Shown here piece by piece: positions 14,842 through 38,067 of a DNA stretch of 45,842 bases. The DNA is taken from NCBI GenBank assembly GCA_021736215.1, contig JAIPGI010000009.1, positions 1 through 45,842 of the forward strand, given 5' to 3'. The position numbers and the translations under genes are program-made. A model generated the notes under the pieces. The model was not told the DNA's origin. It saw nothing but the letters and a program-made list of their open reading frames with translations, and ran no database searches. The first letter of the stretch is position 1. Each line of letters starts with the position of its first letter. The stretch comes from Candidatus Altimarinota bacterium (GTDB lineage: Bacteria; Patescibacteriota; Gracilibacteria; UBA4473).

Positions 14842-15621
14842 ATGAAATTTATTTTTCGTTTTCCAAAACAAGATCGTGTAGAAACAGTTGTTGTGTTAAG
14901 GAACTCAGAATTACTCGATTCGACTCCAATTGAAAAGCAAGAAAAACAAAAAGAAATTGTTGAAAAATTTGAAAGTCTGCTTAAGAAATACGATGACGTT
15001 TTTAAAGAATTTCCGCCAACACAACCTATTTCTTTGGGAGATGTGAAATTTGAAAGTTGGGAAAAGGGGAAAAAATATGTTGAAGAGTTTAAAGATGTTG
15101 AGGTGCAGTATTCTAGGGCCTACAAAAGGATGATTTTATCTGGGGGGAAAAATACAGAACAAGGATTGGAGTATTTTTTAGTCCGCTACAAAAATGAAGA
15201 AGGGGAAATCATGAAGCATGAACTTGATTTGGACAAATCCGAAAAAGAATATAAGGATGCTTATTTTAAAAAATATGGGAAGAAATTTAATTATCAAGAA
15301 TTAGAGAAGAGAAATAGGCTTATCGGAGCAGAAGAGGTTATTTTTGATGGAGTAAGAAATATTCGTCAAAAAAGAAGAAACCTTTCTTATTGGAATCGAG
15401 CTGCGAAGAACAAGTACGAGACATCATACAGGGATGTGGAATTTGAATCTTTGCGTGATCAAAAACCCCAAAGTGGTATTTCTGGAAAAAAAATAGAAAA
15501 ACAAAGAGATTTAAATTTTCTTGAAAAATTTTTAAAACCAACAGAACAACTTTTGGAAAAAAAGAATACAGGGAATGATTTAGGGAATTTAAAGGGAGAA
15601 ATAACAGGAACTCACAGTTGA
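14842..15621 (+). CDS. Charged soluble protein, unknown
   Basis: A 259-residue protein very rich in Lys and Glu, with no signal peptide or membrane helix. Residues about 30-50 and 200-245 look helical and perhaps coiled coil. I do not recognise a family. A TATAAT at 14817-14822 with a weak TAGACG 17 nt upstream gives a leader of about 12 nt. The gene is more AT-rich and Lys-rich than its neighbours and stands directly before the tRNA-Pro/GIY-YIG locus, so it may belong to acquired DNA; that is only suggestive. Confidence 0.65.
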   Translation: MKFIFRFPKQDRVETVVVLRNSELLDSTPIEKQEKQKEIVEKFESLLKKYDDVFKEFPPTQPISLGDVKFESWEKGKKYVEEFKDVEVQYSRAYKRMILSGGKNTEQGLEYFLVRYKNEEGEIMKHELDLDKSEKEYKDAYFKKYGKKFNYQELEKRNRLIGAEEVIFDGVRNIRQKRRNLSYWNRAAKNKYETSYRDVEFESLRDQKPQSGISGKKIEKQRDLNFLEKFLKPTEQLLEKKNTGNDLGNLKGEITGTHS

Positions 15622-15730
15622 TTAAAAATCCTACTTGAGTTTTTTTGGGAAATGATTATCGTCCACAAGCTTTTTAGCAAATCGTTGAGATATAGCTTCG
15701 GTTGTTTCGTTTGAAGCCAAGAGAAGCTAA

Positions 15731-15757
15731 TTTATCGTCGGGGTGTAGCTCAGTTGG
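15731..15757 (+). repeat. Left copy of a 27-bp direct repeat (tRNA-Pro 5' end)
   Basis: TTTATCGTCGGGGTGTAGCT and the following CAGTTGG recur at 16041-16067 with one mismatch, exactly 310 bp away. The repeats bracket the GIY-YIG ORF and include the first 19 nt of the tRNA plus 8 nt of 5' flank, so the duplicated unit began outside the tRNA itself. Confidence 0.9.
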
Positions 15758-15786
15758 TCCGCCTGAGGCGGATACATGATTTGGGA
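15739..15786 (+). pseudogene. Truncated tRNA-Pro copy with a palindromic insert
   Basis: CGGGGTGTAGCTCAGTTGG matches the 5' end of the intact tRNA-Pro at 16049. The D-arm is then interrupted by a small palindrome, TCCGCC-TGA-GGCGGA (15758-15772), after which TACATGATTTGGGA matches the anticodon arm including the TGG anticodon with one mismatch. Everything 3' of the anticodon loop is unrelated, so no cloverleaf can form. It looks like the left-hand relic of a duplication. Confidence 0.8.
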
Positions 15787-15816
15787 GGAATGAGTTATAC
15801 TTACCCAAGATAAAAT

Positions 15817-16071
15817 ATGTATAGCGTTTATGTTATTTCAAATCCCAAAGGTATTCTCTACAAGGGGAGCACATCTCATCTAGAACAGAGGATGGGGGAA
15901 CATCAAGATGGACTGAGTCCGTGGACCAAAGGGAAAGGTCCGTGGACACTGGTTTATCATGAAGAGTTCAAAACCCGTTCTGATGCGACGAAAAGAGAAA
16001 AGTTCCTAAAATCAGGGAAAGGGAGAGAATTCCTCAAAAATTTATTGTCGGGGTGTAGCTCAGTTGGCTAG
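15817..16071 (+). CDS. Single-domain GIY-YIG endonuclease-like protein
   Basis: An 84-residue protein of the small GIY-YIG (URI/YhbQ-like) type: VYV and YKG stand for the GIY and YIG motifs, followed by the conserved Arg in HLEQRMGEHQ and the Glu in KREKFLKSGKGREFLKNL. The usual domain ends at about residue 76; the last nine residues (LLSGCSSVG) and stop are read from the 5' end of the intact tRNA-Pro gene, overlapping it by 23 nt. A TATACT lies 15 nt upstream of the ATG. Sitting between a tRNA half-copy and the intact tRNA, it looks like a mobile endonuclease ORF that inserted at the tRNA while rebuilding it; activity is inferred from motifs only. Confidence 0.85.
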   Translation: MYSVYVISNPKGILYKGSTSHLEQRMGEHQDGLSPWTKGKGPWTLVYHEEFKTRSDATKREKFLKSGKGREFLKNLLSGCSSVG

Positions 16072-16125
16072 AGTACATGGTTTGGGACCATGGGGTCGGA
16101 GGTTCGAGTCCTCTCACCCCGACCA
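16049..16125 (+). tRNA. tRNA-Pro (anticodon UGG)
   Basis: A complete cloverleaf: acceptor CGGGGTG with CACCCCG, D stem GCTC with GAGT, anticodon stem CATGG with CCATG around the loop TTTGGGA (anticodon TGG), T arm GGAGG-TTCGAGT-CCTCT, discriminator A and an encoded CCA. It is followed directly by an intrinsic terminator. Confidence 0.97.
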
Positions 16126-16126
16126 G

Positions 16127-16165
16127 AAAAAAGCGAGTGTGTCTAAAGGGCATAGTCGCTTTTTT
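16127..16165 (+). terminator. Intrinsic terminator after tRNA-Pro
   Basis: AAAAAAGCGA (16127-16136) pairs with TCGCTTTTTT (16156-16165), leaving a 19-nt loop; the T-run ends the hairpin, as in a Rho-independent terminator. Confidence 0.7.
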
Positions 16166-16226
16166 CACATGTGCAGAGGGAGAAAATATTCTCCTGCCTA
16201 GGGGAAAGGAGGAACTCAAACAAAAC

Positions 16227-16255
16227 TTGATTTTTTGTATTCAATTCACCACAAT
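16227..16255 (+). promoter_or_regulatory. Promoter of the DUF3352-like gene, leaderless layout
   Basis: TTGATT (16227-16232), 17 nt, CACAAT (16250-16255), then 8 nt to ATG 16264 with no Shine-Dalgarno. Confidence 0.5.
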
Positions 16256-16263
16256 CCTCGCCG

Positions 16264-17937
16264 ATGAAGACTCAAACAAAAGTGCTCAAAAAATGGGATT
16301 TAGTAAGAAAGAATCCGATCTTTTGGATTGGCTTAGTAATTTTTTGTGTTGGACTTTTTGGGATTGGAACATTCGTTCGCAAGGCTCTAGTGGGAGAACT
16401 CGACAAGTTCTTTACCAAAGATGCCATTATGACCGCGGAAATGCGTTTAAATGAACCAACTTTGCAAAGACTCCAACAATTGTTTCCAACAACGGATCTT
16501 GGAACTCTTTTTTCCAACATTACTCAAGATAAATTTGGCTTAGATTGGGACGAGGATATTCAGCCATGGATTGGGTCAAATATAGGATTTGCTCTTTTTG
16601 ATAAAGGGGATTTCATTCTTGCGGCAAAGTACAGAAGTCGCGCAAAAGCTGAAAAATTTCTTGATAGATTTCGATTGCCCGACGAAACTTTTGAAATTCG
16701 AAGTGTTGGAGGAGGGGAATTGTGGATACCAGCTTATTCCTCAAATATTGCACTCGGTTTTTATAAAGGATATGTACTTTTTTCTACTTCAGAAAAAATC
16801 TTATCAGAAAATTTTTTAGATTCAGAAAAGATTGCTGATACTGAAAAATATCAGGCTATTCAACGAGATATTCCAAGTCAGTGGGCATTTAATTTTTTTA
16901 TAGATACCGAAAAATTTGCACAACACTTTTTTAATACGGGGCAGTATGCAGTTCAAAAACCAGTATTTCAAGCTATCACACAAGCTCTTCCAGCGGCAGG
17001 ACTTGCTGTTAAATTGGATCAAGAAGCCTTTACAGTTCACTCGAAATTCTTGACTACAGAAGGAGTCTTTGCGGAACGAGAAATCCCTCATGATGCTAAT
17101 CAGACTATGCCAGAATTAGCACAATTTGCTCCACAAAATGTGCTCTTTTTTATGAATGGAGCAGATCTATATCAGAAGTATGTACATACAAAACAATTCC
17201 TAGAAGGGTTTGATCCACAATTTTCTGTCATTTTTGATGGAGTGTTGCGTGGGATTTCCCGTCAATATTTTGGTGAAAAATTTGATTTCGAAAAAGATTT
17301 GCTGTCCCGTTTCCACGGGCAATATGCTATTCTCCTAGATTTCGAAGACGTGTTGTCTCCTTTTGTGAATTTTACGCTTATTACGGGGTTTGGGGGACCA
17401 GATATGGAACAAAACCTTTCTGAATTGCACGATGTTATTCATTTTGCTCAAACGCAGTTTCTGACCGAGAAAAAAGAAGTAAAACTTCCTGACGGAAGTA
17501 TGCGCGAAGAGCTCGTAGCTGTCGATGAAGCGACTATCCCCATCCAAAAGAAAGAGTTTGATGGCGTAACATACTATACTGCAGAAAATGCTGGACAAGG
17601 AAAACAATTTTCTTATACATTTGTAGAAGGATACTTTTTGTTTTCTACATACGAACAAGGAATTCGTTCAATGGTTTCGGCTTATCAGGGGAAGACAGGA
17701 AACCTAGCTCAAAATGAAGATTTTCGGGAAAGTGTGCTTTTCCGATATTCTCCATCAGAAAGTTATGGATTTTTCAATGTCGAAAAACTCGCTTCAGCTC
17801 TTGAGTTGTTATCAACAACTGAAAATCCAGATAATCCGTGGATATCCGCATTCCGAGCGGGAATAAGAAACTTTACATTTGCAAGGAAAGTATTTCCAGA
17901 AGCTGTTTTTTGGACGGGTACATTGTTTTTGAGATAA
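16264..17937 (+). CDS. Membrane-anchored DUF3352-like protein
   Basis: A 557-residue protein with a basic N-terminus, one membrane helix (about residues 19-40) and a long extracytoplasmic domain. Features such as WIGSNIGFALFDKGDFILAAKYRSRAKAEKFLDRF and later FEGVTYYTAENAGQG-like segments (here FDGVTYYTAENAGQG) fit the DUF3352 family, whose function is unknown. Two similar halves seem present: a WIGSNIGFAL-type module near 100 and a FHGQYAILLDFED-type module near 350. It starts a run of envelope genes reaching to 23470. Confidence 0.7.
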   Translation: MKTQTKVLKKWDLVRKNPIFWIGLVIFCVGLFGIGTFVRKALVGELDKFFTKDAIMTAEMRLNEPTLQRLQQLFPTTDLGTLFSNITQDKFGLDWDEDIQPWIGSNIGFALFDKGDFILAAKYRSRAKAEKFLDRFRLPDETFEIRSVGGGELWIPAYSSNIALGFYKGYVLFSTSEKILSENFLDSEKIADTEKYQAIQRDIPSQWAFNFFIDTEKFAQHFFNTGQYAVQKPVFQAITQALPAAGLAVKLDQEAFTVHSKFLTTEGVFAEREIPHDANQTMPELAQFAPQNVLFFMNGADLYQKYVHTKQFLEGFDPQFSVIFDGVLRGISRQYFGEKFDFEKDLLSRFHGQYAILLDFEDVLSPFVNFTLITGFGGPDMEQNLSELHDVIHFAQTQFLTEKKEVKLPDGSMREELVAVDEATIPIQKKEFDGVTYYTAENAGQGKQFSYTFVEGYFLFSTYEQGIRSMVSAYQGKTGNLAQNEDFRESVLFRYSPSESYGFFNVEKLASALELLSTTENPDNPWISAFRAGIRNFTFARKVFPEAVFWTGTLFLR

Positions 17938-18593: not shown

Positions 18594-18691
18594 AAATGAA
18601 CCTTTTTTTTGTTATCGGGAATAATGTCTTTCGAGACCGGTCTTGGGGGATTATCGTAATGAACAACGAATAATGAACAATGAACAATTTA

Positions 18692-18818
18692 AAATCTCCC
18701 TCTCTTCGAGTCCGAGCGAAGCTCGCCTCAGAGTCGAGGATCAACTCCCTCTTTGGCAAAGAGGGAGGGGGTTCTTTACCCCCTTTGGAAAAGGGGGAAT
18801 GAAAAGGGGGATTTTGCT
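18692..18818 (+). repeat. Repeat copy A supplying the start of the LamG gene
   Basis: Starts AAATCTCCCTCTCTTCGAGT and contains a hairpin CTCCCTCTTT-GGC-AAAGAGGGAG (18745-18767) and then CCCCTTT...AAGGGGGAATGAAAAGGGGG. A second copy lies at 22662-22784; the first ~75 nt differ at only a few positions. The ATG near the 3' end (18799) is the probable LamG start. Both copies follow tracts of AATGAACAAT type. Confidence 0.85.
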
Positions 18819-21800
18819 TCTTTCTTCTCTCTTTATTTTCTCTTCCTCTGCTCAGGCGGCGACGATCATGCGTCCACCAAATCATTTGGGACTCGTGGGG
18901 CATTGGGAACTGACGAGTGGGAGTTTAAAAAATGGGAAAGCCCAAGACACGGCTTCCAGCATCAATGATGGGACGATTTCTGGGACTGTGGATATGCGAA
19001 ATCATGGATACAAGTTTGATGGAGTAGATGATTATATAAAAATCGGAGATAAATCAGAATTAGAATCAATGGGTGTATTGAGTGTTTCAGCGTGGATTAA
19101 AACAACAACTACTGCGACAAATAAAGGAATTGTAGCGAAATGGTATACAGGGACCGTTTCCTATTCACTAAGAACAAGTGTTAATTCTCCTGGGAAAATA
19201 GATTTTCATACTCAGACATCTGCAACAACCACTTCTACATCTACTAGCTCAATAAATGATGGAAGTTGGCATCATTTAGTAGGCATTTACGATGGCACGA
19301 CGCAGAAACTTTATATTGATGGAATAGAAGAAGACAGTGACTCCCAAACAGGTACTATTAAAGATAGTGAAGAAGAATTTTGTATCGGTACTTTTTGTAA
19401 TGGAACCACTACGGATGGATTTTTCGACGGCAACATCGCCGATGTTCGTGTATACAATTACGCTCTCAGTACCGCAGAAATATTGGATTTAAACAATAAT
19501 AAAAATGCAGGGATCTCCGTCGGACATTGGCCACTTAATCGTAATACACAGGACGTTTCGGGGAATGGAAATCATGGAACGCCACTTCCCGATAATAAAG
19601 GTCCGTATTATACGACAGGGCCACAATCTCAAGCTAACGGAGCTATGGTTTTTGATGGATCAGATGATTATGTGCAAACCACAAATCCACTTTTTTCTGG
19701 AAATGATAACTTTACCTTTAGTGGATGGGTGAAGTTGGGGAATCTTACCAATGTTCATAGATTTTTCTCTCAAGGGAATGAAAGTGCTAACTCTCATTTT
19801 TGGGTAGGGGCGGATGCTACTACGGGGTACTTTCAGTGGGGATTTTGGGCGAATGATAAGACTACAACGACAGCACTCAGTGCTGATACATGGTATCACA
19901 TTGTCGTTGTGAAAGATGGAGCAACTTCCTATGGTTATGTAAATGGAACCCAAATCGATAGTCTCGCTAGTGGAACACTTACTATTGGAAATAATGCTGC
20001 GTATTTGGGAGCCATCTCTGCTAGTCATCCTCATAGATTGGCTGGAAACCTAGCCGATGTTCGGATATACAATAGCGCTCTTACATCTACCGACATTACC
20101 AACTTGTATAATGGACAAAGTGTTGGCACGCCAGTAGGACATTGGTTATTGAATGGAAACATTCAAGATTCTTCAAGTAATGCAAACCATGGAATCGTGA
20201 ATGCAATGAAATTCTATGATGGTCCACTATCAATAGGTGATTCTGCCTACTTCAATGGAGCAAGTTCCATAAGTATTAACAGCAATAGCAGTGCCAAACC
20301 AACAGGATCTCAAACTTTTTCTTTTTGGTATAACACAGATACTCATTTTCCAGTGAATTGGATGCAGATTTTCGGAGGAGTATCATTTTCAGGTAGTGCC
20401 AATGTGGGACATGCTTTTGGAATTACACGACAAGATCTCGGGGGGGCAATAGTCTCAGATCTACATAACGCTGCCACAACTGGTGAAAAACGAAGTATGG
20501 GATGGATTGGATATCCGGGAGAGGGTTGGCATTTTGTAACAAGTATTTATGATAGATCTGCTCCACGGCACATTGTTTACATTGATGGGGTCAAGGTAAT
20601 CGATAAATATCCAGGGAATGCGACGAATTGGGATTCGGGGTACTTGGATGTCAGTTGGGGTAGTACACCATTAAGAATCGGATCAAATTCTGCAGGGACG
20701 GGATGGTTTTATTCAGGGTATTTGAGGGACTTCAAAATTTACAACCGTACGTTGAGTCAAGCGGAAATTTTACGTATGTATACGGCATCGGAAACGACAG
20801 GGAGTGCTAGTACAGTTAAACCTCCATCTCGTACGGGACTTGTAGGAAATTGGAAATTGAGCCAATCAGGGCAGGAAGGGGGGGCAGAATTAAACGTCAA
20901 TTGGGACATGGAAACAGGAGTTACCTCTACATGGAGTTGGGATCCCAAAGCAAACGGGATCCGTTCAGAATACACAGTAGATAAGTATAGAGGAAGTAAA
21001 TCAGCCAAACTCACAAATGCAACAGATAGTTCAATTGCCTTCTGGCAGCAGAGAACTGGTGTAACGGTAGGGACTTATTTTCGTGTTGGCGTATGGGCAA
21101 AAAACGTCGATTGTCCCACCACGCCTTATTGGGGGAATACTGGGGCGACGCTTGTTTCCAGTAATACTGGATCCGCGTCTTTTACGGGGATTTCTACGAC
21201 TGAGTGGAAATATTATACGGCTTTGTTTAAAGCGACTGCTAGTACTGTAGATATTCATGTCCGAACCGCTAATAATGCGACTCAAGGATCTTTTTTGATT
21301 GATGATTTTACCTTCAAAGTTGTTCAAGAAGGCGATGCGAGTGGGAATGGAAATAATGGAATAATTTATAATGGAGTAGTCTATGCGACTGGGCCTCATG
21401 GAGAAAGTGGAGGAGCTATGGATTTTGACGGAACGGATGACGCAGTTTCCATAACTAATATCCCTGCTTCAGAGATTGTATCATCAACGGGGACCTATTC
21501 TTATTGGCTTAAACTTGATACTACAAATTCTCATCATGGACCTTTTCATTGGTATGATAGTGGAGGGGTTGGAACAGCAGATTATATTCGTAATTATATA
21601 AGTGCAGCCAATAACCAAATCGATTTAATTATAGAAGATGAAGATGTTGTAAAAGTAAGTTTAGCTTACGATCTAGATAATTTAGGTTCCTATGTCGGGC
21701 AGTGGCACCATTTCGTTTGGAGACAGGATGGAGGAGCTGATGGAGACGGAATAGATCTTTTTATTGATGGACAAGAAAAAACACTATCTGGAACAAATTC

Positions 21801-22623
21801 TACTGATTGGTGGACATCGCACCTAATAGAAGGAACAAATGTAATTCGTATGGGTCTTTCTTGGTATTATCTTGACGGGAAAATGTCGGATGTGCGTATT
21901 TATAATCGTCCTCTTTCTGGTTCAGAAATAGCAGGGCTCTATCGGAGTTCTAAACCCGCCACAATTAATTCCTCCCAAAACGATAAAGTAACGTCTGGAC
22001 TCGTAGGATTGTGGTCATTTAATGGTCCAGATGTGAATGGAACAGTTGCCTATGATCAATCGGGGAACGGAAATAACGGGACCATTACTGGAGCAGTACC
22101 TGCTATTGGGAAGGTAGGGCAAGGAATGAGTTTTGATGGAAATGATGTTGTTAGTTGCGGTACGGATGTGACATATGCTTTTGGTAGTGGTGATCATTCA
22201 TTTGCTGCGTGGGTAAATCCAAGTGCCTTAGAAACGAGCTCGGTCTATAATTATATTGTGGCAGTAGGAAATGGTTCTGCAGGTCAACAATCTGGGTTTG
22301 GAGTGAAGAATACAGCTAGTGGAGGGAATTTTTTCCATTCAGCTTATTCATCACCATTAATTACTTTTAGTGATACTATCCCTTTGGACGAGTGGTCTCA
22401 TGTGGCACTTGTGCACCAATCGGGGACTAGTAAGCTGTATATAAATGGAGTATGGAAAGAAGATAAAGCTATCACTATGAATGTTCAAACGGGAAAGTGT
22501 TATATTGGTACGCATACTGGAGGATCTTCTTATTTTGATGAAGGAGTTTTGGATGAGGTTCGTATCTATAATCGAGCATTATCGGCAACAGAAATCACAC
22601 AGCTTTATAATTTGGGACGATAA
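18799..22623 (+). CDS. Secreted multi-LamG (concanavalin A-like) surface protein
   Basis: About 1274 residues from ATG 18799, which opens a good signal peptide (MKRGILLLSSLFIFSSSAQA); the frame is open 52 codons farther upstream but that part is translated repeat. Five LamG/LamGL domains are visible, each starting GLVGHWxLx or VGHWxLN, with DxSGNGNHG and FDGxDDYV and ending YNRALSxxEIxxLY. The fourth is split: after GLVGNWKLS about 150 residues resembling a CBM4/9 jelly-roll (NVNWDMETG to FLIDDFTFKV) are inserted before DASGNGNNG. LamG domains bind sugars or proteins, so this is probably an adhesin or glycan-binding protein. No cell-wall anchor is seen. No function beyond binding can be claimed. 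Confidence 0.9.
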   Translation: MKRGILLLSSLFIFSSSAQAATIMRPPNHLGLVGHWELTSGSLKNGKAQDTASSINDGTISGTVDMRNHGYKFDGVDDYIKIGDKSELESMGVLSVSAWIKTTTTATNKGIVAKWYTGTVSYSLRTSVNSPGKIDFHTQTSATTTSTSTSSINDGSWHHLVGIYDGTTQKLYIDGIEEDSDSQTGTIKDSEEEFCIGTFCNGTTTDGFFDGNIADVRVYNYALSTAEILDLNNNKNAGISVGHWPLNRNTQDVSGNGNHGTPLPDNKGPYYTTGPQSQANGAMVFDGSDDYVQTTNPLFSGNDNFTFSGWVKLGNLTNVHRFFSQGNESANSHFWVGADATTGYFQWGFWANDKTTTTALSADTWYHIVVVKDGATSYGYVNGTQIDSLASGTLTIGNNAAYLGAISASHPHRLAGNLADVRIYNSALTSTDITNLYNGQSVGTPVGHWLLNGNIQDSSSNANHGIVNAMKFYDGPLSIGDSAYFNGASSISINSNSSAKPTGSQTFSFWYNTDTHFPVNWMQIFGGVSFSGSANVGHAFGITRQDLGGAIVSDLHNAATTGEKRSMGWIGYPGEGWHFVTSIYDRSAPRHIVYIDGVKVIDKYPGNATNWDSGYLDVSWGSTPLRIGSNSAGTGWFYSGYLRDFKIYNRTLSQAEILRMYTASETTGSASTVKPPSRTGLVGNWKLSQSGQEGGAELNVNWDMETGVTSTWSWDPKANGIRSEYTVDKYRGSKSAKLTNATDSSIAFWQQRTGVTVGTYFRVGVWAKNVDCPTTPYWGNTGATLVSSNTGSASFTGISTTEWKYYTALFKATASTVDIHVRTANNATQGSFLIDDFTFKVVQEGDASGNGNNGIIYNGVVYATGPHGESGGAMDFDGTDDAVSITNIPASEIVSSTGTYSYWLKLDTTNSHHGPFHWYDSGGVGTADYIRNYISAANNQIDLIIEDEDVVKVSLAYDLDNLGSYVGQWHHFVWRQDGGADGDGIDLFIDGQEKTLSGTNSTDWWTSHLIEGTNVIRMGLSWYYLDGKMSDVRIYNRPLSGSEIAGLYRSSKPATINSSQNDKVTSGLVGLWSFNGPDVNGTVAYDQSGNGNNGTITGAVPAIGKVGQGMSFDGNDVVSCGTDVTYAFGSGDHSFAAWVNPSALETSSVYNYIVAVGNGSAGQQSGFGVKNTASGGNFFHSAYSSPLITFSDTIPLDEWSHVALVHQSGTSKLYINGVWKEDKAITMNVQTGKCYIGTHTGGSSYFDEGVLDEVRIYNRALSATEITQLYNLGR

Positions 22624-34559: not shown

Positions 34560-35600
34560 ATGAAAAAGGTTCTCGTTCTCAAGGTCGGAACAGCCGCTAT
34601 CACTAATGGCTATGGGGATATCGAAGAGGTTGTCGTTGAAAATATCTGTCAGCAGCTTTCTATTTTGCACAACAAATATAATGTTATTCTCGTATCTTCA
34701 GGGGCAGTAGGGGCTGGAAAAAAATACCTTCAGAACTACGCGGGGAGCATTACCGAAAAAAAAGCTGCTGCAGCTCTTGGAAATCCACGACTTATACAGA
34801 AATATGCCGAATTTTTTCAACACAGCCAAGTGGGGGTAGCACAGGTATTGTGCGAACGACACCATTTTTCTAATAGAAAACAGTTTCTCCAACTTCGTTC
34901 AACATGTGAAGCACTGTGGGAAAATAATATTATACCGATTATTAATGAAAACGATGTTATCTCAGATCATTCCCTGAAATTTTCTGATAATGATGAGATG
35001 GCAACACTTTTGGCGATAGGATTTTCGGCAGAAAAATTGCTTTTTGGGAGTTCGATGCCAGGGTTACTCGATGGAGAAGAGGTAATTCCTCGTATTGAAA
35101 AATTTAGTGCTGAGATTTTTTCTTGTGCCAAACCAGGAACATCAAGAGGAGGACTCGGGGGAATGATTTCAAAACTCTCTTGTACTAGACTTGCAACAAA
35201 TTTCGGAACAACGGTTGTAATTTTTGATGTGCGAAAAGATGGGAATATATTGCGAGCAGAGCAATTCCAAACGGGAACTGTTTGTTCGGCGCAACTTTGT
35301 AATATTTCTGCTCACAAAAAATGGATGGCGACTGGTAGTCTTCCAACGGGAAGAGTTGTGATTGATCTAGGAGCTGCTGAGGCTTTGAAGAAAAGGAAAA
35401 GTCTTCTTTTGGTGGGAGTCAAATCAGTCGAAGGGGATTTTGAAAAAGGAGATATTATAGAAATCTATGTAGATGGTATGGAAGGGGTAGAGGATGTATT
35501 TGCGGTAGCCAGAGCGAAGATATCCTTTAGTGATTTTGAATCGAATAAAAAGCAAAAAAATGTCGAAATTGCCCATGCAAACGAAATTGTCATATTCTAG
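34560..35600 (+). CDS. proB: Glutamate 5-kinase with PUA domain
   Basis: Phosphorylates glutamate in the first step of proline synthesis. A 346-residue protein: amino-acid kinase domain (about 1-255) with VLKVGTAAIT near the start, VSSGAVGAGK, INENDVIS and RGGLGGMISK, then a C-terminal PUA domain (about 260-340, with SLPTGRVVIDLGAAEALKKR). The predicted -10 box ends 8 nt before the ATG, so the mRNA is leaderless. First of three proline genes here, separated from proA by a 320-bp gap with repeats. Confidence 0.94.
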   Translation: MKKVLVLKVGTAAITNGYGDIEEVVVENICQQLSILHNKYNVILVSSGAVGAGKKYLQNYAGSITEKKAAAALGNPRLIQKYAEFFQHSQVGVAQVLCERHHFSNRKQFLQLRSTCEALWENNIIPIINENDVISDHSLKFSDNDEMATLLAIGFSAEKLLFGSSMPGLLDGEEVIPRIEKFSAEIFSCAKPGTSRGGLGGMISKLSCTRLATNFGTTVVIFDVRKDGNILRAEQFQTGTVCSAQLCNISAHKKWMATGSLPTGRVVIDLGAAEALKKRKSLLLVGVKSVEGDFEKGDIIEIYVDGMEGVEDVFAVARAKISFSDFESNKKQKNVEIAHANEIVIF

Positions 35601-35766
35601 TCCAGAGGATTGAGCGAAATATGAAAACTCGCGTAGAACCAGTCTTGTTCTATCCGTAACGAAATTATGTTTTACCGGATTACATTTAATATATCCCTCA
35701 ATATTTTTTAAATATGCTTTTTTCGCAATTGCTTTAGCTTTAAACCTCCCTTAAAAAACGGGATAT

Positions 35767-35782
35767 TTGAGTCCGGACTCAA
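35767..35782. repeat. Perfect 16-bp palindrome TTGAGTCC-GGACTCAA
   Basis: Core AGTCCGGACT is shared with the in-gene element at 23338-23349. It lies just upstream (on the minus strand) of the RAYT remnant. Confidence 0.75.
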
Positions 35783-35885
35783 GAACTCCTAAAAGAATGT
35801 AGAAATGGTTTGGAAAAAGAGAAAAAGTAAGAATCTTTCTACTTGGCATGATTTCAATCATGATTTACATTACAATCGCTTTGTT

Positions 35886-35914
35886 TTGAGGACAAACGAG
35901 GATTTAAATAAAAT
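35886..35914 (+). promoter_or_regulatory. proA promoter, leaderless layout
   Basis: TTGAGG (35886-35891), 17 nt, TAAAAT (35909-35914), then 6 nt to ATG 35921. There is no Shine-Dalgarno. Confidence 0.6.
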
Positions 35915-35920
35915 TTCATC

Positions 35921-37171
35921 ATGCATTCTATTCAACCACTTCTTCAACAAACACATAAAGCATCTCATCAGATTGCTCAGCTTTCCGATGAAAAAAGAAA
36001 ACAGCTTGTCGAGGCTATTGCTGATGCAGTTGAAAATGGGACGAAAGAGATTCTGATTGCCAATCAGAAGGATGCTGCAAAAATGGACGATAATGACCCC
36101 AAAAAAGATCGATTACTTTTGAGCGATGAGCGGATTAAAGGAATCGCTCATGATGCGCGTACTGTTGCGGGGTTACCTGATCCCACAGGCAGAGTTCTCG
36201 TAGAGAGAATGCTTGATAATGGAATACAACTCCAAAAACGAACAGTTTCCTTGGGCGTTGTGGGGGTGATTTATGAATCTCGTCCCAATGTAACCCTTGA
36301 TGTGGCGGTTTTGGCATTGCGATCAGGAAATGCGGTCGTGCTCCGAGGGGGATCTGACGCGGAAAATTCCAATAAAGCAATCGTGAAAATAATTCATAAA
36401 GTGTTGGAACAATTCGCATTGAACACAAATATTGTTCAATTATTGCCCACCGATAGAATCTTTGTCAAAGAGCTCCTCGAAGCGGAAAAATACGTAGACA
36501 TTATCATTCCTCGAGGAAGTGCGAACCTTATTCAATTCGTTCGAGACAACGCAAAAATCCCGACTATTGAAACGGGAGCTGGGGTGTGCCACACATTTGT
36601 GGAGGCTTCAGCAGATTTAAAGAAAGCAAAAGACATTATTCTCAATGCGAAGCTTCAGAGACCCTCTGTCTGCAATGCGTTGGATACAATTCTTGTTCAG
36701 AAAGAAAATTATGCACAATTTTTGCCCATGCTGGTTGAAGAATTTTCAAGAAATTCGGTTGAAATATTTGCTGATGAGCAGTCTTACGAAGTTTTGCACA
36801 AAGCGAAATACCCATATTTACAAAAAGCAAAACAAGAAGATTTTGGACGAGAATTTCTTTCGCTGAAATGTTCCGTAAAAGTGGTGAATAGTTTTGATGA
36901 GGCTCTTGATCATATTGCTCGTTATTCATCAAAACATTCAGAAGCAATTGTTTCTGAAGATAAAAAACAGTGCGAGCGTTTCTTGGCAGAAGTGGATGCG
37001 GCAGCGGTGTACTCTAACGCTTCCACTCGATTTACTGATGGGGCAATTTTTGGTCTGGGGGCAGAGATTGGTATCTCAACTCAGAAACTCCATGCGAGAG
37101 GTCCTTTTGCACTCGAAAAACTTACGACAGAGAAGTGGGTTTTGAGAGGCGATGGACAAGTGAGGCAATAA
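35921..37171 (+). CDS. proA: Glutamate-5-semialdehyde dehydrogenase
   Basis: A 416-residue NADPH-dependent reductase of gamma-glutamyl phosphate, second step of proline synthesis. Characteristic stretches: GVVGVIYESRPNVTLDVAVL, LRSGNAVVLRGGSDA, VDIIIPRGSANLIQFV, a catalytic-Cys region in LNAKLQRPSVCNALDTILV, and YSNASTRFTDGAIFGLGAEI near the end. Length is normal. It has its own promoter, so proB and proA are not a tight operon. Confidence 0.96.
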   Translation: MHSIQPLLQQTHKASHQIAQLSDEKRKQLVEAIADAVENGTKEILIANQKDAAKMDDNDPKKDRLLLSDERIKGIAHDARTVAGLPDPTGRVLVERMLDNGIQLQKRTVSLGVVGVIYESRPNVTLDVAVLALRSGNAVVLRGGSDAENSNKAIVKIIHKVLEQFALNTNIVQLLPTDRIFVKELLEAEKYVDIIIPRGSANLIQFVRDNAKIPTIETGAGVCHTFVEASADLKKAKDIILNAKLQRPSVCNALDTILVQKENYAQFLPMLVEEFSRNSVEIFADEQSYEVLHKAKYPYLQKAKQEDFGREFLSLKCSVKVVNSFDEALDHIARYSSKHSEAIVSEDKKQCERFLAEVDAAAVYSNASTRFTDGAIFGLGAEIGISTQKLHARGPFALEKLTTEKWVLRGDGQVRQ

Positions 37172-37262
37172 ATAATGAATAATGAGCAATGAGGAATGAA
37201 GAATAACAAAATTCTCTCTAAACTATGAACTCTAAACTATGAACTCTAAACTCTAAACTACC
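37172..37262. repeat. AT-rich repeat tract between proA and proC
   Basis: AATAATGAATAATGAGCAAT-type units (37171-37206) are followed by tandem CTCTAAACTATGAA units (about 37215-37260). The first kind recurs at 18660-18690, 22628-22660, 38380-38410 and 40764-40790. Confidence 0.7.
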
Positions 37263-37266
37263 CTCA

Positions 37267-38067
37267 ATGAAACTTGGATTTTTCGGCTGCGGAAATATGG
37301 GAGAAGCATTTCTCAAAAGCATCCTCTCTCAGAAGGTTTTTGAATCTCAAGATATTATCGTTTGTAATCGTGAAGCAGAAAAAAACAACCGTCTTGCCAA
37401 ACAATATAATGTTAAGACAACCCTTGCCCCATCAGGCTTGCAAGATTGTGATATATTGATGGTCGCATTTAAACCGCAAAATTTAGCCGAGATATCTTTT
37501 GTTCCACGAAAAGGAATGGTCGTCGTCTCAATGCTCGCTGGCAAAACCATTGAAAAAGTTCAAGAAAAATTTATGAACACAAAAATTGTTCGTATTATGC
37601 CAAATCTTGGTCAATTTGTTGATTTCGGTGTTACGGGAGTGGTCTTCGACCCTACTACGAACTTTGAAGATGTCGAGAGAGAAATCGTCTTCTTGATTCT
37701 CGAATCAGGTGGGAAAGTCCTTGAGTTAGAAACGGAAACAAGGCTTGATCAATTGTCCACGATTTCCGGTTCGGGTCCAGCGTATTTTTTTCTCTTTGCA
37801 GAAAAGCTTGTCGAAGCCGCACAGAAGTATGGATTTTCTGAAGAGGAAGCAGATTTACTCGTGAGGCAGACTTTTTTGGGATCCGCAGAAATTGCGAAAC
37901 AGAATCCCGATAATACATTTGCTCTCTGGCGAGAAAAAGTGACTTCCCCCAAAGGAACCACCGAGCAAGCGATTCGAGTATTTGAAGAAGCAGATTTGGG
38001 AAAGATTGTTGAGGAGGCAGCTTTCGCCGCACTCAAACGCACCCAAGAACTCTCTCAAGAACAATGA
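37267..38067 (+). CDS. proC: Pyrroline-5-carboxylate reductase
   Basis: A 266-residue NAD(P)H-dependent enzyme for the last step of proline synthesis. The N-terminal nucleotide-binding motif is GFFGCGNMGEAFL (residues about 4-16), followed by VAFKPQNL and VVSMLAGKTIEKV; the C-terminal catalytic/dimer region has ISGSGPAYFFLFAEKLVEAA and TSPKGTTEQAI. Its TGA stop overlaps the ATG of the TfoX-like gene by four nt (ATGA). Confidence 0.95.
   Translation: MKLGFFGCGNMGEAFLKSILSQKVFESQDIIVCNREAEKNNRLAKQYNVKTTLAPSGLQDCDILMVAFKPQNLAEISFVPRKGMVVVSMLAGKTIEKVQEKFMNTKIVRIMPNLGQFVDFGVTGVVFDPTTNFEDVEREIVFLILESGGKVLELETETRLDQLSTISGSGPAYFFLFAEKLVEAAQKYGFSEEEADLLVRQTFLGSAEIAKQNPDNTFALWREKVTSPKGTTEQAIRVFEEADLGKIVEEAAFAALKRTQELSQEQ

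Follow-up and report, generated by a model that had tools for sequence, protein, structure and literature searches.

How does a nuclease gene encoding 84 residues come to lie between a broken and an intact copy of the same tRNA gene? tRNA genes are favourite landing sites of large integrative elements. The unit considered here is only about 0.3 kb long, with a GIY-YIG gene as its sole gene, and lies in a 45,842-nt stretch of the Candidatus Altimarinota genome (we call this entire stretch the window). The initial annotation, made from the DNA letters and their reading frames, interpreted the arrangement as the footprint of a homing-type endonuclease that inserts at a tRNA gene and restores it.

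Architecture of the window locus

The GIY-YIG ORF (15817–16071, forward strand) is framed by a 29-nt repeat with one mismatch (28 of 29 identical), the copies of which lie on the forward strand at 15729–15757 and 16039–16067. Their start-to-start distance of 310 bp agrees with that given in the initial annotation, which had described a slightly shorter repeat. The right copy comprises the end of the ORF and the start of an intact tRNA-Pro(TGG) with an encoded CCA (16049–16125, forward strand; ARAGORN; RF00005, 65.4 bits). The TAG stop codon of the ORF, at 16069–16071, lies in the D-loop of this tRNA, so both the completeness of the right-hand tRNA and the ending of the protein inside it had been read correctly. 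The left copy is the outer part of a relic, consisting of 10 nt of 5′ flank and tRNA-Pro nt 1–19. It is followed by a perfect 15-nt palindrome, TCCGCCTGAGGCGGA (15758–15772), which occupies the D-loop position and substitutes six nucleotides of the tRNA (CTAGAG), and then by an inner part, TACATGATTTGGGA (15773–15786, forward strand), equivalent to tRNA-Pro nt 26–39 with one mismatch. The earlier description of the left copy as a degenerate tRNA extending to the anticodon loop needs amending: the loop is reached, but only when the palindrome is skipped. The palindrome itself was absent from that description, as was the mirror order (intact tRNA, ORF, 3′ relic) found at other loci.

The 84-residue protein scores 54 bits against PF01541 (cut-off 22.6), placing it in the GIY-YIG superfamily, and an alignment of 17 members contains invariant Y5, Y15, G17, R25, H29 and E49, the conserved catalytic residues. 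This 17-sequence alignment lacked a conserved stretch, and relatives of the protein were sought with the conserved block of five closer sequences. The best profile matches among solved structures in the PDB are UPF0213 (1zg2, 1ywl) and the SLX1 nucleases, the latter being distant homologues; the match to these structures suffices to assign the fold. An intron or IStron was rejected because no intron family matched at 15600–16300, where the tRNA alone attains the gathering score.

Among the surroundings, the 259-residue ORF immediately upstream of the element (14842–15621) has no Pfam match, with SLATT_4 appearing only below threshold. A 1326-residue protein at 18643–22623 has five Laminin_G_3 domain matches, and matches to AA_kinase+PUA, aldehyde dehydrogenase and P5C reductase at 34560–38064 resemble a proB-proA-proC proline synthesis cluster. 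That such a cluster shares the window with a tRNA-Pro is probably a coincidence.

Recurrence within the same genome

The genome contains 12 PF01541 matches, among them UvrC and one gene split into two pieces at contig ends (L017/L018). For four small GIY ORFs, the window ORF included, the distance to a tRNA gene is at most 60 bp (P about 2e-5, given the 42 tRNAs in the genome), and two of the three others have palindrome-interrupted relics. At the first (L008), a tRNA-Met 5′ relic interrupted by TACCGCGTACGCGGTA is followed by the ORF and an intact tRNA-Met. The second (L009) has the mirror order, with an intact tRNA-Ile followed by the ORF and a 3′ relic carrying TCCCGCTAAGGCGGGA in place of the anticodon arm. 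The third ORF (L018) is immediately 3′ of tRNA-Lys, and no relic was seen at the contig end. A tRNA-Val 3′ relic holding two palindromes occurs elsewhere with no GIY ORF (L021).

The 1.01-Mb genome contains 11 exact copies of the window palindrome (TCCGCCTNAGGCGGA), or 23 when ≤1 mismatch is allowed, and none of the reversed pattern used as a control. Palindromes of the same classes are also dispersed away from tRNAs and GIY genes. One palindrome, TCCGCCTTAGGCGGA, lies in the apparent 3′ end of a 23S rRNA gene (contig C10, 376–390; L023), and the same palindrome family is therefore found inside an rRNA gene too. At another locus (L012), a 30-nt terminator-like hairpin, present as exact duplicates at 1362–1391 and 1842–1871, flanks a GIY-YIG ORF away from tRNAs, which would fit a terminator as the target.

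GIY-YIG genes of relatives are biased towards tRNA genes

PF01541 was searched in 60 genomes, namely that of the window and 59 relatives, and the loci of the matches listed yielded 133 distinct small GIY ORFs. Of these, 48 have a tRNA gene no more than 270 bp away, where 3.5% (about 5) were expected (P about 1e-35), and 46 of the 48 share the strand of the nearby tRNA. We scored the 49 tRNA-adjacent loci with sufficient flank for a partial tRNA copy; in 29, the flank across the ORF fits the neighbouring tRNA better than all tRNAs of other isotypes, which identifies it as a partial duplicate of the same tRNA. A recognisable relic is missing in about 40% of tRNA-adjacent GIY genes. Adjacency and partial copies, two of the checks suggested in the initial annotation, thus both bear it out. 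Chance is excluded because the pattern recurs, in three more tRNA-near GIY ORFs of the same genome and dozens in relatives.

A wider set was collected by tRNA-type queries and is unfit for frequency estimates; in its phylum sample, 77 of 113 GIY matches have a tRNA close by (same strand in 75), and in its 80 loci of named genomes 75 of 89 do, all 75 on the same strand. The named-genome loci come from Patescibacteria, Bacteroidota, Chloroflexota, Omnitrophota, Ignavibacteriota, Acidobacteriota, Planctomycetota, Margulisiibacteriota and others, and include the isolate Sediminibacterium goheungense DSM 28323. In this cultured species, an intact tRNA-Arg, a GIY ORF, a two-palindrome relic and a second, near-identical GIY copy form a tandem array (L220:1280–2150). 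A tandem pair of GIY ORFs was also found at L179, each followed by a tRNA-Met 3′ relic with the same hairpin. Phage and plasmid relatives comprise one phage record, two plasmids and one IMG/VR contig, and we reject a phage or plasmid origin on account of this scarcity.

Palindromes interrupt the tRNA relics

In both sets combined, 74 of 196 distinct tRNA-adjacent loci have, within a partial copy of their own tRNA, a palindrome whose arms measure 6 or more, compared with 37 of 784 (5%) in the mismatched-isotype control. The left junction of the palindrome clusters at tRNA nt 23–27. The commonest non-zero lesion is a 17-nt loss (16 of the 74 loci), mostly of exactly the anticodon arm; the remaining palindromes substitute part of the D-arm or T-arm, or are inserted without loss, and some relics are near full length with a single arm altered (L195, L216, L232). 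Most cases belong to four palindrome classes: CCGCCnnnGGCGG, TCCCGn..nCGGGA, CCTGCCTGCCGGCAGGCAGG and TCGCCnnnGGCGA. Exact copies of a palindrome number 1–11 per genome. 5′ relics outnumber 3′ relics, 29 of the 74 palindrome-bearing relics are located downstream of their ORF, and solo relics occur with no ORF.

A tree of 130 GIY domains resolves isotype-specific clades that extend across families, comprising Pro(TGG) (100/94), Asn (100/92), Gln (98/91) and Leu (100/97), with further clades for Trp, Gly and Pro(GGG). Many forks in the GIY trees are poorly resolved, the alignments being short. On a tree of the 74 palindrome loci, palindrome class is clustered, requiring 22 changes against a shuffled mean of 39.6 (0 of 200 shuffles were as low). 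Moreover, 5′-relic and 3′-relic members of one lineage have the same palindrome class at a similar site, as in the Gln (L109/L126), Pro-GGG (L212/L234) and Cys (L195/L274) lineages. At the level of sequence, the proposal that tRNA identity and palindrome class track the GIY lineage across phyla is well supported.

A separate GIY clade of 43 members (100/95) has none near a tRNA. GIY ORFs away from tRNAs often lie between inverted or direct palindromic repeats, e.g. TGTCATTCC..GGAATCCA, and 15 of 84 have an inverted score of at least 40, compared with 0.3% in the control. At L013, L044, L053, L092, L095, L123, L134, L142 and others, such ORFs have inverted GTCATTCC..GGAATC-like or GTCATCCTGAA..TTCAGGATC-like flanks, which are REPtron-like.

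Empty sites and copy boundaries

In eight family members, a single tRNA-Pro(TGG) adjoins the orthologue of the gene downstream of the element, with neither GIY ORF nor relic. None has two intact tRNAs, the outcome that the initial annotation had linked to a plain tandem duplication. The empty-site genomes are divergent (32–51% identity in the neighbouring protein), and loss and gain are therefore not separable at the window locus. In a genome of the same genus (G001, L065), the element is present and its block is inverted relative to the downstream gene. An element at a tRNA-Ser has empty tRNA genes in five congeners, and one congener has a solo relic with a palindrome and no ORF. Together, the empty sites and the tRNA bias support homing-type insertion at a tRNA with restoration of the gene, as first proposed, and neither of the two outcomes that the initial annotation named as refuting it was observed.

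Identity between the tRNA copies mostly ends at the tRNA boundary, with ≤2 nt of outer flank shared in 37 of 53 and 21 of 32 loci, which makes it more likely that the restored part was imported than duplicated in place. A target-site duplication by a transposase was rejected, since the duplicated outer flank is ≤2 nt in most loci. The intact tRNA beside the window ORF is not visibly recoded and is almost the same as the tRNA at the empty site of L064; a nuclease simply cutting that sequence would therefore attack its own host.

A proposed route into tRNA genes

We consider it probable that the window locus is one copy of a widespread, minimal tRNA-gene mobile element, made up of a small GIY-YIG gene, a lineage-specific palindrome and a spare tRNA part, with homing-type entry. 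As far as comparative genomics can tell, the mobility of this element and its sequence association are well supported. The model builds on features observed directly, namely the architecture, the tRNA and same-strand biases, the association of lineage, isotype and palindrome, and presence or absence in relatives. The nuclease would promote recombination between element-bearing DNA and an element-free allele of the cognate tRNA gene. Its putative activity would cut either the tRNA gene near the junction of D-stem and anticodon arm, as in homing, or the cognate palindrome, both being presumptive cut sites, and repair would then copy the cassette into the tRNA gene. For the orientation seen in the window, the tRNA's native 5′ part would be left outside, interrupted by the palindrome, while the new 5′ part brought by the cassette would join the native 3′ part to make a working tRNA; in the mirror orientation, the broken copy would be the native 3′ part. 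An alternative route to the same outcome would be a single crossover, 5′ or 3′ of the palindrome, between a circle bearing a palindrome-broken tRNA and the chromosomal tRNA. The donor, circular or linear, and the role of the palindrome are likewise putative. Entry by homing-type recombination or a single crossover, with one functional tRNA remaining, would account for the window and mirror arrangements, for the shared strand of ORF and tRNA, and for the pattern of flank identity, the specificity of lineages and the existence of empty sites.

Alternative explanations

This mechanism leaves two points unexplained: how the intact tRNA would escape cutting, and why palindromes are dispersed, something that homing alone does not call for. 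The dispersed palindromes speak for a REP-like partnership, in which the GIY-YIG protein is the partner enzyme of the palindromic repeats, recognising the palindrome as a hairpin or dimer site and dispersing it; tRNA genes would be favoured as stem-loops and the relics would be by-products. Consistent with this are the tracking of GIY lineage by palindrome class, the copies outside any relic in the window genome (including those in the apparent 23S rRNA gene and other repeats), the frequent replacement of a whole tRNA stem-loop by the palindrome, and the palindromic repeats that often flank GIY ORFs away from tRNAs, the separate clade among them. Genomes with the exact palindrome also have more GIY genes (7.3 vs 3.2 per genome, P=0.0003, in a statistic that ignores phylogeny), and the distant SLX1 homologues are structure-specific nucleases. 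On its own, however, this partnership leaves unexplained the restored intact tRNA beside the ORF, the 98% same-strand rule and the isotype-specific lineages, and palindrome recognition by the protein is only putative. We regard it as rather unlikely to be the main explanation, and the homing and REP-like models are not mutually exclusive.

An improbable reading is that the palindrome-bearing relic is neither scar nor recombination site, and instead acts as a regulatory RNA whose hairpin controls translation of the nuclease gene, as for T4 homing endonucleases. The window relic comes shortly before the ORF and has a stable fold (z −2.8), and hairpins that sequester the RBS occur in the T4 segB and I-TevI mRNAs (PMC2988022); against such a role stand the relics located 3′ of the ORF and the solo relics that have no ORF to regulate. 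It is very unlikely that the locus is the remnant of a classical integrative element, with the tRNA as attB of a tyrosine recombinase and the GIY gene as surviving cargo. An intact tRNA at one end and a partial copy at the other are indeed the usual footprint of a tRNA integrase, but no integrase, transposase or recombinase domain was found among the 18 larger window proteins scanned, the unit is tiny and has one gene, tRNA sequence flanks the palindrome on both sides in the relics, and 5′ relics predominate. Finally, we give almost no credence to a plain tandem tRNA duplication with one decayed copy and a GIY gene between by chance, for although the window repeat includes the 5′ flank and at least 6 nt of flank are identical in 16 of 85 loci, as a general explanation it is refuted by recurrence at many isotypes in many phyla, the strand rule, the palindrome within the decayed copy, flank identity that mostly stops at the tRNA end, and empty sites with one tRNA rather than two.

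A broader reading is possible, though less likely than not: small GIY-YIG nucleases may serve as mobility enzymes for a novel class of mobile DNA in prokaryotes, with a cognate palindrome per lineage. One branch would enter and rebuild tRNA genes and another, with inverted GTCATTCC-type flanks, would spread REP-like palindromes, the two jointly explaining a large share of the short palindromic repeats of Patescibacteria and other phyla. If the tRNA-gene element is real, a nuclease gene, palindrome and spare tRNA part within 0.3 kb would be about the smallest autonomous element of tRNA genes. It would give a role to many 'GIY-YIG nuclease family proteins' annotated without function. It would also account for partial copies of tRNAs in Patescibacteria genomes, along with some of their short palindromic repeats. 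What looks like annotation noise in such genomes, a 'pseudo-tRNA' or a nuclease gene that overlaps a tRNA, may belong to a mobile element. These nucleases would form a natural set, each paired with one tRNA gene, so target recognition would become directly testable.

Comparison with known systems

An element family with this three-part arrangement at many kinds of tRNA in many phyla is apparently undescribed: a search of open-access papers turned up no account of GIY-YIG units nested in tRNA genes, or of their palindromes. Insertions in CPR rRNA genes that are not introns have been noted to carry GIY-YIG ORFs, without a mechanism (PMC11270868), and resemble the present units in placing such ORFs within RNA genes of CPR bacteria. 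The closest structural matches, UPF0213 (1zg2, 1ywl) and SLX1, differ in that they are not known to be mobile, SLX1 being a structure-specific junction nuclease. Elements integrated at tRNAs by tyrosine recombinases likewise end in a restored, intact tRNA on one side and a partial copy on the other; here, however, there is no integrase, the unit is far shorter (~0.3 kb), the partial copy holds a palindrome and the relics are mostly 5′. REP sequences and their RAYT (TnpA-REP) enzymes are similar in tying short dispersed palindromes to one enzyme lineage, whereas the enzyme here is a GIY-YIG protein rather than a Y1/HUH transposase, the palindrome sits inside a tRNA copy, and exact copies are few in each genome.

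The closest precedent comes from T-even phages, whose SegB is a GIY-YIG homing endonuclease that is free-standing and encoded within a tRNA cluster; free-standing homing genes cut alleles that lack the element better than those that carry it (PMC2988022, PMC13096335). By sequence, the present element matches such endonucleases in lying outside any self-splicing intron or intein and in the occurrence of element-free alleles at the same locus. SegB too is an intronless GIY-YIG gene surrounded by tRNA genes; it cuts in the tRNA region and is inherited preferentially. Unlike SegB, a phage gene between intact phage tRNAs, the genes described here are chromosomal with hardly any phage relatives, are associated with one isotype per lineage, and face a palindrome-broken tRNA copy across the ORF.
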